Below, one piece after another: positions 24,814-28,542 of a stretch of 59,154 nt of DNA. The notes under the pieces are model-generated. The model searched no databases and had not been told where the DNA came from. It was given only the letters and a program-made list of their open reading frames with translations. The position numbers and the translations under genes are program-made. The stretch is from positions 1 to 59,154 of the IMG/VR virus record IMGVR_UViG_3300027749_000004; one strand, 5' to 3'. Numbering within the stretch: the first letter of the stretch is position 1; each line of letters opens with the position of its first letter. The stretch is from a virus.

Positions 24814-25881
24814 ATGGCTAACGTCGACTTCCAACAGTTTGTCACCCTCGAAGAAGCTGCCCAACAGATCGCCACCAACCCACGGGTTAGGTACATACTC
24901 CGTGGTGAGAAGGGTATCGGCAAGTCCAGTATCATGGGCATCCTTGCCAAGAAGCTACCCGACTATGAGATGGTCTACCGTGACGTGGGTGCTATGGCCG
25001 AGGGTGAGGCTGGCATCCCCATGCCTAACCATGAGACGAGGACGAGCGCCCTGTACCCCAACACGGGGTTCAGGCTGCACCTAGGCAAGCCTGTGTGCAT
25101 CATGCTCGATGAGTTCACCAAGGGTAGCCGCTACGTGCAGAACATGCTGCACCCCCTGCTCGAGCGCACCGCTCCGCGCTTCGGTGACAACAATACACCC
25201 GACCGCACCATCGTCATCCTGTCCGGTAACCTTGGCGACGAGGGTCTAGGCGACGTGCTACTCGGTCACACTGCTGACCGCGTGGTCGAGCTGTTCATAC
25301 GCAAGCCTACCGCTGACCAGTGGCTGACGTGGGCATCCAACAACGGTATCGACCCCGTGCTTATGGCATGGGTCTACGAGACACCGCAGGTCTTGGCGAG
25401 CTACATGGATGAGGGCCAAGAGGGTAACGTCTACATCTACAACCCGCGCAAGGTACAGAGCGCTATCGTTACCCCTCGCTCGCTAGACATTGCGTCTGAC
25501 ATCGTGTCGACCCGTCACCTCAACACTCCTCACTCCGTGAAGGCTGCGCTCATCGGTAAGATCGGCATGGCTGGGGCTTTGGACCTGCTGGCTTACGTCG
25601 ACTACCAAGACCAGCTCTCACCATGGCTGGATATCACAACCAACCCCAAGACTACGCCTATCCCTACGTCGGCAGGTGCATGCTCCGTGCTGGTGTTTGG
25701 TGCCATCGAGAAGATCACTGTCGAGACCATGACACCGTTCATGACCTACCTCGAGCGGCTCGCTCCCGCGTGGCAAGCTGCCTTCGCTATCAACGTCGCC
25801 AAGAACCCAACCAAGCAGAAGATCGCCTTTACTAACGCTGCCTTCGCGAGCTGGCTCGAGCGTAACGAAGACCTGCTGTAA
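24814..25881 (+). CDS. MoxR/CobS-type AAA+ ATPase
   Basis: A 355-aa ATPase with Walker A GEKGIGKSS (residues 31-39), Walker B VCIMLDEF (94-101) and a sensor-1 region TIVILSGNLGDEG. The layout (short N-terminus, GE.G.GKS, FLDE-type Walker B) fits the MoxR group, whose members pair with VWA proteins to remodel targets or insert metals. A VWA-metallopeptidase protein is encoded two genes downstream, which strongly supports a functional pair. CobS of cyanophages is a related alternative, but no cobalamin genes are present. Confidence 0.82.
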   Translation: MANVDFQQFVTLEEAAQQIATNPRVRYILRGEKGIGKSSIMGILAKKLPDYEMVYRDVGAMAEGEAGIPMPNHETRTSALYPNTGFRLHLGKPVCIMLDEFTKGSRYVQNMLHPLLERTAPRFGDNNTPDRTIVILSGNLGDEGLGDVLLGHTADRVVELFIRKPTADQWLTWASNNGIDPVLMAWVYETPQVLASYMDEGQEGNVYIYNPRKVQSAIVTPRSLDIASDIVSTRHLNTPHSVKAALIGKIGMAGALDLLAYVDYQDQLSPWLDITTNPKTTPIPTSAGACSVLVFGAIEKITVETMTPFMTYLERLAPAWQAAFAINVAKNPTKQKIAFTNAAFASWLERNEDLL

Positions 25882-26126
25882 TGCAGATACTTAGCGTCGG
25901 ACTGTGGAGTCAGAGCGGGGGTGAAGGTGGGGACGTGTTTTCCTGCCGCATCCTCCTCGAGCCTAACGAGTATGTAGACCTACACGCAATAGTAACCCGT
26001 AGCTACGACCCCTCAACCATGAAAACCGAGGTGGTGGTTCTTGTGAAAGGGCACGACGAGCTCGATGCCTACAAGAAGGTACCTGCCCTAGTCAACAAAG
26101 GAGAAGACCGTGTATTTAGAACCTGA
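25881..26126 (+). CDS. Small unknown protein between the AAA+ and VWA genes
   Basis: An 81-aa protein starting MQILSVGLWSQSGGEGGDVF, with beta strands (CRILLEPNEYVDLHAIVTRS, EVVVLVKGH). It is joined to the AAA+ gene by TAATG and overlaps the VWA gene by 17 nt. The tight packing suggests it belongs to the same complex; no family recognised. Confidence 0.65.
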   Translation: MQILSVGLWSQSGGEGGDVFSCRILLEPNEYVDLHAIVTRSYDPSTMKTEVVVLVKGHDELDAYKKVPALVNKGEDRVFRT

Positions 26127-27429
26127 AGTTAGCATACGTGACAAGGAGGAGCGCAAGCTCCAGAAGGTTAAGGTCAACCTCATGCGGAACAAAATCTTTG
26201 CCCGCATGTCCGGCCTGATGATGGTTGGCACGACCAAGATCGTAGAGGGTACCGTCTTCGGGCGCACCGATGGCTTCAACGAGGAGTATGGTCGCCCCTT
26301 CATCGCCAAGCATTCCGAGCGTGAGGTCGGCTACGTGGTTGTCCACGAGTCGGGTCACAAGATGCTGCGCGACATCCAGACGTGGGCCAAGCTCTGGAAG
26401 AAGAACCACAAGCTCACCAACCAAGCTACCGACTACGTGCTTAACCTCATCGTCAGTGACATGGACCCGACCGAGCAGTTCATCGCCTTCCCTCGCGACC
26501 CCGTTACGGGTGAGCGGCTAGGTCTGTACGACGAGCGGTTCCGTGGCATGCACGTCAAGCAGGTCTACGACATCCTCGAGCAGGAGGAGAAGGAGAAGCA
26601 GAAGCTGCCGCAGCCGAAGCAAGACGAAGGTCAACCACGGCAAGGTCAAGGTCAAGGTCAAGGCAACGGCTCACCACAGCAGAGCAAGCGTCAGGGTCCT
26701 GCCGATGGCGGTGGCTTCGACGAGCACGACTGGGAGGCTGGTCAAGAGCGCACCGAGGCAGAGGAGGCAGAGGTCGAGAAGGAGGTCGACCGCGCTATCC
26801 GTCAGGGCAAGATGCTGCACGAGAAGCTCAACGGTAAGGGTAACGGTAGCGTCGACCGACTGTTCGACAAGCTGGTCACGCCCAAGATCAACTGGAAGCG
26901 CGAGACGCAGGAGTTCGTCACAGCCTACTGCATTGACAAGGAGGAGGCGACCTACCGCAAGCTTAACCGTCGCTTCGTCGGTTTGGATATCTACCTACCC
27001 ATAATGATTGGGGAGACGCTGAACAGCGTGGTCATGGCGACCGACATGTCGGGTTCCATCCACAAGGAGATACCTACCTTCATGACGGAGATGGTGTCGC
27101 TCATGAAGATGGTCAAGCCTGAGAAGGTCGACGTGCTCTACTGGGACAGCCAAGTCACAGCGCATGAGACCTATACGCAGAATACCTTGGACAACCTCCT
27201 GTCCGAGACCAAGCCCAAGGGTGGTGGTGGCACGCAGCCATCGTGTGTCTCCAACTACATGGCTAAGCACAAGATGAAGCCCGACTGCATCATCGTGCTG
27301 ACCGATGGCGAGGTCGGCTCCGACTGGGGTAACAACTGGCCCGCACCCGTCTTGTGGGTGGTGGTCAACCCCTATCGTCAGATCACTGCGCCCGTTGGCA
27401 AGACCATCTACATTCCGGAGTTCGACTGA
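26110..27429 (+). CDS. Metallopeptidase-like protein with C-terminal VWA domain (DUF2201 type)
   Basis: A 439-aa protein with a GTG start behind AAAGGAG. The N-terminal domain has HESGH (residues 79-83) and NQATDYVLNLIVSDM (from 104), matching the zincin signature of DUF2201_N proteins (HExxH then ADxxIN). A Gln/Gly/Glu-rich linker covers about 160-230. The C-terminal VWA domain has the MIDAS motif DMSGS (312-316), then GGGGTQPSC and CIIVLTDGEVGSDWG. VWA proteins of this kind work with MoxR ATPases. The linker resembles the acidic spacer of CobT. Substrate unknown. Confidence 0.85.
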   Translation: MYLEPEVSIRDKEERKLQKVKVNLMRNKIFARMSGLMMVGTTKIVEGTVFGRTDGFNEEYGRPFIAKHSEREVGYVVVHESGHKMLRDIQTWAKLWKKNHKLTNQATDYVLNLIVSDMDPTEQFIAFPRDPVTGERLGLYDERFRGMHVKQVYDILEQEEKEKQKLPQPKQDEGQPRQGQGQGQGNGSPQQSKRQGPADGGGFDEHDWEAGQERTEAEEAEVEKEVDRAIRQGKMLHEKLNGKGNGSVDRLFDKLVTPKINWKRETQEFVTAYCIDKEEATYRKLNRRFVGLDIYLPIMIGETLNSVVMATDMSGSIHKEIPTFMTEMVSLMKMVKPEKVDVLYWDSQVTAHETYTQNTLDNLLSETKPKGGGGTQPSCVSNYMAKHKMKPDCIIVLTDGEVGSDWGNNWPAPVLWVVVNPYRQITAPVGKTIYIPEFD

Positions 27430-27641
27430 TGTTTAAGCTACAGCCCAAGCCACCCAAGGTGCTCGACCCCAACTGGGTACGCACCGAGCAGATGCAGGTG
27501 ACGATCAACATGCCGCAGCAACAGTTCAATAGGCTCAAGCAAGCTGGTCGTGAGTTCAACCTGTCCATGCGGCAGGTCGTGACGCAGATGGTCGCCTATG
27601 CCGAAGCTAACATGTCCACCGACACTACCCCTAGCAAGTAA
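27429..27641 (+). CDS. Ribbon-helix-helix DNA-binding protein candidate
   Basis: A 70-aa protein starting MFKLQPKPPKVLDPNWVRTE, joined to the VWA gene by TGATG. Residues about 20-55 (QMQVTINMPQQQFNRLKQAG, then SMRQVVTQMVAYA) have a beta strand followed by two helices, as in Arc/MetJ-type repressors, which bind palindromes as dimers. It is a candidate for recognising the CCATGG-centred sites; this is inference. Confidence 0.65.
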   Translation: MFKLQPKPPKVLDPNWVRTEQMQVTINMPQQQFNRLKQAGREFNLSMRQVVTQMVAYAEANMSTDTTPSK

Positions 27642-27666
27642 CCCACAACCATCAAGGAGAATTAAC

Positions 27667-28542
27667 ATGTCCATCCCTAACACTTCCATTACCTCATCGT
27701 CTGTCTTGGTCGAGATGAACATCTCTGTCTGGGGCGCGTCCAAGCTGGACAAGACCGTCACTGAGAAGGTGACCGACGACAACAACGCCTCCAAGGATGC
27801 AGCCAAGGTCTCCAAGAACCTCATGGCTGGCACCCACCTACGTAAGGAGATCGCTGACTTCGCCGCGCAGTGTCGCCTCTGGCACAACACCCACACCCTG
27901 CCTTGGTCCGACAAGGGTCCTCGCCTTCTACCTACGTCGCTATTCCTAGACTACAAGTCTGAGGTCAACATGCGGCGCGACAAGTTCAACGAGCTGGTTG
28001 AGCAGTTCAAGCGTGAGTACCCTGCGCTGGTCCAGACTGCGTTCAACTATCTGGGCGACATGGCCAACGCGAGCGACTACCCCACCATCGAGGAGCTGCA
28101 CGACAAGTTCGGCTTCCGTCTGGTCTTCACCCCGCTGCCCGACTCCGGTGACTTCCGTCTCGATGTCCCTGCTCAAGCACTGGCAGAGATGAAGGACGAG
28201 TACGACACCGCGTTCAACCAACGTGTCGCTGCTGCGATGGAGGAGCCTTGGAAGAAGCTGCACAAGCTGCTGACCGACATGTCCGACAAGCTGACCGAGA
28301 GCGAGGGGGAGGGTGACGAGTTCAAGAAGCGCTATCACTCCACGCTTATCACCAATGCTCAGGCTATGATCGACATGCTCAAGCACCTGAACATCACCAA
28401 CGACCCCAACCTCGAGGAGGCTCGCCAGTCCCTAGCCGAGACCATGAGCGGCTTGGACATCGACGACATCAAGGACAGCCCTGTCGTCCGCGCCGACGTC
28501 AAGTACGGTGTCGATGCTATCCTCAAGAAGTTCGAGTGGTAA
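27667..28542 (+). CDS. DUF3150-like protein of the MoxR/VWA module (candidate)
   Basis: A 291-aa mostly helical protein starting MSIPNTSITSSSVLVEMNIS after AAGGAG. It contains WHNTHTLPWSDKGPRLLPTS and LDYKSEVNMRRDKFNELVEQ. DUF3150 proteins accompany MoxR ATPases and VWA proteins on phages and integrative elements; the context and helical make-up suggest that family, but the assignment is from memory of layout, not alignment. It would be a structural or targeting partner of the ATPase complex. Confidence 0.6.
   Translation: MSIPNTSITSSSVLVEMNISVWGASKLDKTVTEKVTDDNNASKDAAKVSKNLMAGTHLRKEIADFAAQCRLWHNTHTLPWSDKGPRLLPTSLFLDYKSEVNMRRDKFNELVEQFKREYPALVQTAFNYLGDMANASDYPTIEELHDKFGFRLVFTPLPDSGDFRLDVPAQALAEMKDEYDTAFNQRVAAAMEEPWKKLHKLLTDMSDKLTESEGEGDEFKKRYHSTLITNAQAMIDMLKHLNITNDPNLEEARQSLAETMSGLDIDDIKDSPVVRADVKYGVDAILKKFEW

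Follow-up and report, generated by a model that had tools for sequence, protein, structure and literature searches.

What would a phage of lytic type do with a complete module consisting of a MoxR-type AAA+ ATPase and a metallopeptidase joined to a VWA domain? The question is raised by positions 24814-28542 of the viral record IMGVR_UViG_3300027749_000004, which we analysed over its entire 59,154 bases (the window). Five closely packed open reading frames lie there on the plus strand, overlapping by 1-17 nt at three junctions, and an earlier note on this DNA had read them as a single complex with its own operator and ribbon-helix-helix (RHH) gene. The AAA+/metallopeptidase-VWA module and its tight junctions are borne out by what follows; the five-gene complex is not. 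The conserved module is the AAA+ ATPase, the zincin-VWA protein and the protein here called p5, followed by a fast-evolving gene, p6, that had been missed. We propose, at a probability of roughly one half, that the AAA+ ring, the zincin-VWA protein and p5 would form an early protein-unfolding, probably proteolytic machine for the establishment or replication of a replicon, rather than one for virion assembly or cobalt insertion.

Gene co-occurrence and co-divergence

Homologous loci were fetched through the AAA gene (76 viral loci with more than 4 kb downstream) and through p5 (41 loci with more than 4.5 kb upstream, p6 being scored in 71). All 76 AAA-fetched loci contained the VWA gene, with p6 in 73, p5 in 71 and an Hjc-like nuclease gene in 55; AAA and VWA were both present in 41 of the 41 p5-fetched loci, and p6 was the next gene in 70 of 71. 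The loci include near-identical samples, and the counts therefore do not represent independent events. Homologues that never occur together, the outcome that the earlier note had named as fatal to its reading, are thus the reverse of what this survey finds for the AAA and VWA genes. The commonest order is AAA, VWA, p5, p6. The gene set of the module is carried by hundreds of environmental phages as well as by conjugative bacterial plasmids.

Another way to view the linkage of these genes is through their divergence. Across 63 non-redundant loci, the AAA and VWA distance matrices correlate at r = 0.92, or 0.885 when controlling for the DNA polymerase gene polA and for Hjc, values that are inflated by the tendency of adjacent genes to recombine together. 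By these correlations AAA and VWA are the tightest pair, while p5 and p6 are conserved yet track the replication backbone more. p6 lies nearly always 3' of p5, although its homologues share only about 20% identity; its AlphaFold2 model is confident (pLDDT 88), and a fold search with it returned only anonymous phage proteins, with no characterised relative.

p2 and the RHH gene behave differently. Among the 76 AAA-fetched loci they were seen in one other contig only, that of the closest relative (L002, fetched twice), and on this ground a five-gene complex was rejected. p2 is 34% identical to its counterpart in L002 and has no family match in Pfam or PHROG searches. The RHH protein is 97% identical there, and the AAA protein 84%; it has a plausible strand-helix-helix sequence and weak PHROG matches to phrog_582 (Arc-like, 0.027) and phrog_5118.

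Table 1. Genes of the module and features of its upstream region, in window coordinates
Feature	Position	Strand	Remarks
AAA+ ATPase, MoxR/midasin-type	24814-25881	+	phrog_1297; homologue of N4 gp24
p2, small 81-aa protein, lineage-specific	25881-26126	+	1-nt overlap with AAA gene
Zincin-VWA protein, 439 aa, DUF2201_N + DUF2201	26110-27429	+	phrog_1314; homologue of N4 gp25
RHH/Arc-like protein, 70 aa, lineage-specific	27429-27641	+	1-nt overlap with VWA gene
p5, 291 aa, third conserved subunit, distantly DUF3150-like	27667-28542	+	
p6, conserved fourth gene, fast-evolving	28591-29475	+	fold unassigned
Sigma-70-like extended -10 promoter	24667-24695	+	TTGACT-17-TACTAT with TG
Hairpin, probable transcript start	24703-24723	+	-14.6 kcal/mol, z -2.9
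Second leader hairpin	24740-24761	+	absent from L002
Perfect 20-bp palindrome CTCACAACCATGGTTGTGAG	24770-24789	.	one of a family of 4-5 sites

The VWA gene has a GTG start, overlaps p2 by 17 nt and is preceded by the Shine-Dalgarno sequence AAAGGAG. p5 is slightly shorter than its open reading frame, the first start of which is at 27598, because the ATG at 27667, after a 25-nt gap, is the one backed by a Shine-Dalgarno sequence.

The AAA+ and zincin-VWA proteins

Both proteins of the central pair are intact in sequence. Walker A (K37), Walker B (D99/E100), sensor 1 (N139) and the arginine R156 of the AAA protein are invariant across 11 diverse homologues. The protein falls marginally below the cut-off for Pfam AAA_5 (21.8 bits against 22); its profile has midasin as its top PDB profile match (3e-28) and aligns with N4 gp24 at 100% in hhalign. 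The assignment of its partner to a DUF2201-type zincin-VWA architecture holds for both domains, DUF2201_N (3e-16, 60.2 bits, Pfam cut-off 23.2) and DUF2201 (2e-15, 57.2 bits, cut-off 26.4). Its zinc-site motif HExxH reads H79-E80-S-G-H83, and H79, H83, D108 and N112 are invariant among sixteen homologues, as are the residues D312, S314, S316, T375 and D399 of the metal (MIDAS) site; HExxH and the MIDAS residues are also kept in N4 gp25 and in the plasmid homologues. The zincin part has weak PDB matches to MJ1213 and to an M48 peptidase. The protein is predicted to act as a peptidase. phrog_1314, its family, is mislabelled 'HNH endonuclease' in PHROGs, and the same label stands on N4 gp25 (NC_008720) and on many RefSeq phage entries.

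Pairs of this kind in cyanophages and haloarchaeal viruses, some of them annotated as peptidases, have been read as CobS and CobT, or 'CobST' (PMC8651126), cobaltochelatase subunits that would boost cobalamin synthesis by the host, and metal loading was among the roles that the earlier note had entertained. For the present module this role finds no support and is highly improbable. The VWA protein matches DUF2201 instead, with CobT (PF06213) not among its matches to E = 1, and its HExxH motif is conserved. No CobN (PF02514) was found in the 59-kb record, although the host could supply it, and no large subunit of ribonucleotide reductase (PF02867) in the window. Bacterial CobT-VWA proteins do adjoin DUF3150, and an ancient link is thus possible.

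p5 and the DUF3150 family

The description of p5 as DUF3150-like survives as distant homology, whereas direct membership of the family had to be dropped. p5 gives no match in Pfam at all, its close homologues give none to Pfam DUF3150 (PF11348), and a p5 homologue on a Cupriavidus plasmid scores 22.1 bits, slightly below the cut-off of 24.9. p5 is, however, 28% identical over its full length to a cyanophage protein annotated as DUF3150, and it gives a profile match of 99.9% to a Rhodovastum plasmid protein. A profile built from phage and plasmid p5 sequences together aligns with five genuine DUF3150 proteins of bacteria at 89% (E=2e-6, 235 columns), against just 13% for a profile of phage sequences only. 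The genuine bacterial members are located in AAA / DUF3150 / CobT-VWA clusters. The AlphaFold model of p5 is helical (pLDDT 84, pTM 0.50); it matches phage proteins only, one of them named DUF3150, and p5 gave no matches to PDB structures or PDB sequences. Taken at the level of profiles, p5 appears to be a distant DUF3150 relative. DUF3150 and phage were not found named together in the literature searched, the coverage of which is incomplete, and within that coverage we found no earlier description of p5 as a conserved third component common to phages and conjugative plasmids, which thus seems little described.

The module follows replication genes and mobile replicons

The module is part of the replication arm of its phage. 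p6 is followed by an RHH-like gene, the Hjc-like nuclease gene and DNA polymerase A, and the module lies on the strand opposite to the head genes. A nucleotide search with 24.5 kb against known phages gave no matches. By protein, the terminase, portal and capsid are kin of HTVC023P-type podoviruses and the DNA polymerase is kin of that of Rhizobium phage RHph_TM3_14A. HTVC023P is 63% identical to the record in its capsid, 39% in its portal and 51% in its terminase, but its replication polymerase differs (24% identity), and neither VWA nor p5 was found in its complete genome by a search for which N4 and MinM2 (VWA) and MinM2 (p5) served as positive controls. RHph_TM3_14A, which has the closest polymerase, carries AAA and VWA genes 5' of that polymerase; p5 was not found in it. 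An attL site is annotated inside its AAA gene (L206, 4151-4164), with a putative integrase downstream.

Plasmids provide the third comparison. In all 41 plasmid records that contain a homologue of p5, a VWA gene is on the same strand, within about 150 bp in 40 of them, and AAA, p5 and VWA are contiguous in five of the six plasmid regions inspected, typed conjugative plasmids included. Such triads are found on conjugative Burkholderiaceae plasmids, and type IV secretion system (T4SS) genes are next door in two of the inspected regions. We also noticed a 75-kb Acinetobacter baumannii 'plasmid', pRBH2-3 (L189), that has a phage-like RNA polymerase gene together with AAA and zincin-VWA genes and is probably a phage-plasmid. 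From the HTVC023P, RHph_TM3_14A and plasmid comparisons we conclude that the module goes with the replication arm and with mobile replicons rather than with the virion.

This bears directly on the proposal, made for the pair in group 2.2 jumbo phages (PMC7824862), of a role in virion assembly, in which the AAA+/zincin-VWA proteins would remodel and clip structural proteins by analogy with tail development in Acidianus two-tailed virus. RPP1 also encodes virion proteins near its gp24/25 homologues (PMC4193335). Since the module parts from the virion in HTVC023P, which has the same virion type, recurs as a triad on conjugative plasmids and is grouped with replication genes here, this proposal is disfavoured, at least in this lineage, and we regard it as unlikely.

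Phages of lytic type and conjugative plasmids share one further circumstance, in that both meet host defences on entry. The unfoldase-peptidase could accordingly dismantle a protein of the host's defences, for instance one that acts in restriction or abortive infection, a role that would suit the early-arm position of the module in a phage that also encodes a 2244-aa DarB-like antirestriction polyvalent protein (41720-48454, minus strand). Against this, anti-defence genes are usually patchy, whereas the AAA-VWA pair is near-universal in the sampled loci, belongs to the Schitoviridae core and has highly conserved residues. AAA, VWA, p5 and p6 are all unmatched in PADLOC, the library of which holds defence systems and not anti-defence; a known anti-phage defence system was rejected as a candidate for the same reason. 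Of the roles listed in the earlier note, host-protein remodelling is a possible one and anti-defence a somewhat improbable one.

A number of observations weigh against an early unfolding and proteolytic machine built on all three proteins. In Pseudomonas phage 98PfluR60PP, a schitovirus, HLAMH replaces HExxH (L090, 4998-6224), with loss of the catalytic glutamate, and peptidase activity may therefore be dispensable. p5 divergence correlates with that of polA at 0.79 but with that of AAA at 0.62, five of the 76 AAA-VWA loci lack p5 and none was detected in N4, and p5 may thus not belong to the core of the machine. As to virion assembly, the pair can adjoin structural genes in jumbo phages: the AAA protein of PA5oct carries an electrospray tandem mass spectrometry (ESI-MS/MS) note and is encoded near structural genes, and the Asteriusvirus AAA-VWA pair comes after the virion genes. 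The closer tracking of polA by p5, like the lineage specificity of p2 and the RHH gene, would also be expected of chance neighbours, the gene order being conserved with no physical complex beyond the AAA-VWA pair. We consider this distinctly unlikely, because the same triad is met again in phages and plasmids with a p5 protein just 24-27% identical to that of the record.

The upstream region

A promoter-like site and a perfect palindrome are both present 5' of the operon, as had been claimed (Table 1). The promoter is kept in L002 as TTGAAC-17-TACCAT with AAAGTGTGATACnATnTAAGAAC, the extended -10 being conserved, although the window has no overall excess of promoter-like sites (6, against 8.4 in shuffles). 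The hairpin at 24703-24723 has an equivalent of other sequence in L002 with the same 8-9 bp stem. More generally, a hairpin with about 8-9 bp of pairing comes directly after the promoter at the start of four early leaders (at 20497-20518 and 24703-24723 in the window, and at the L002 equivalents), and between the two phages the sequences differ while the pairing is preserved.

The palindrome does not hold up as an operator belonging to the module. The family to which it belongs, with a CAACCATGGTTG core, has sites at 19713, 19777, 20329, 20558 and 24774 in the window, and those at 19.7-20.6 kb cluster around an AT-rich iteron region, beyond the operon. The palindrome is absent 5' of the AAA gene in L002, on which ground it was rejected as a conserved operator of the operon, and no exact CRACCATGGTYG-type site was found in the 63-kb record of that phage. 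Since the RHH protein is 97% identical in L002, it is an unlikely partner of the palindrome, and there is thus no support for an operator and RHH gene peculiar to the module. Other inverted repeats, CTCAC-N4-GTGAG, occur near the corresponding places in L002 (4480-5800), as if operator specificity had changed between the two phages. The AT-rich region itself (19690-20460) contains 16 TTTCTTACATT-like repeats (0.4 expected) besides the palindromes, has a 483-bp core retained at 97% in L002, and is a probable replication origin. An Rfam scan of the whole window gave no matches.

Discussion

The AAA+/VWA pair itself is already known in phages. N4 gp24 (AAA+) and gp25 (vWFA) are core genes of the N4-like phages, or Schitoviridae (PMC4193335, PMC7650795), and are middle transcripts in N4 (PMC4193335). 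The Schitoviridae proteins are homologous to those described here, with HExxH and MIDAS in the VWA protein and the same gene order, and the pair adjoins the helicase and polymerase genes in the arm upstream of them, as it lies in the replication arm here; N4 differs in its VWA protein (23% identical), its virion and its transcription system. N4 is listed among the phages used in the CRISPRi-ART paper, in which the transcriptome-wide screens are of T4, T5, SUSP1 and PTXU04, and N4 gene scores were not found in that paper (PMC11879866). The pair of the group 2.2 jumbo phages, a MoxR AAA+ and a vWA protein with an N-terminal metallopeptidase, has the same domain architecture as described, but was proposed for virion assembly (PMC7824862), whereas here it is linked to replication genes and p5.

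Outside phages, the plasmid triads (pRK1-1, pBVIE02) likewise consist of contiguous AAA, DUF3150-like and VWA-like genes, with p5 family membership confirmed by profile comparison. Their order is AAA-p5-VWA rather than AAA-VWA-p5, and their neighbours on the conjugative plasmids include PRTRC and T4SS genes. Bacterial clusters of CbbQ-like AAA, DUF3150 and CobT-VWA proteins follow the same three-part logic, but with a genuine Pfam DUF3150 and, in place of the zincin, a CobT-type N-terminal domain. The midasin and RavA-ViaA machines also combine an AAA+ ring with a MIDAS-VWA protein, and differ in having cellular substrates. To our knowledge, their VWA partners have no zincin domain.

The MoxR/midasin-type ring and its zincin-VWA partner evolve as a single unit and would assemble into a complex, with p5 probably serving as an adaptor or scaffold subunit. 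The VWA domain may hold a target protein through its MIDAS site, ATP hydrolysis by the ring would unfold or extract the protein so held, and the zincin domain might clip it or its adaptor. Complex formation, unfolding, cleavage and a part in replication or establishment are all predicted here from sequence, and the machine would act early or in mid infection on a host protein or on the replisome. More tentatively, lytic phages and conjugative plasmids may share a general three-part machine (AAA+, DUF3150-like and zincin-VWA), driven by ATP and equipped with a peptidase, whose task would be to remodel a single conserved factor of the host, or to destroy it, while an incoming replicon is established or replicated.

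The AAA+/zincin-VWA pair is widespread in phages and part of the Schitoviridae core, and it often bears the label HNH endonuclease or CobST. The separation from the virion in HTVC023P, the tie to the replication arm and the plasmid triads narrow the question of its role to replication or establishment. The target of the module thus becomes a tractable question, for which N4 in laboratory E. coli and the Burkholderiaceae plasmids offer test systems.

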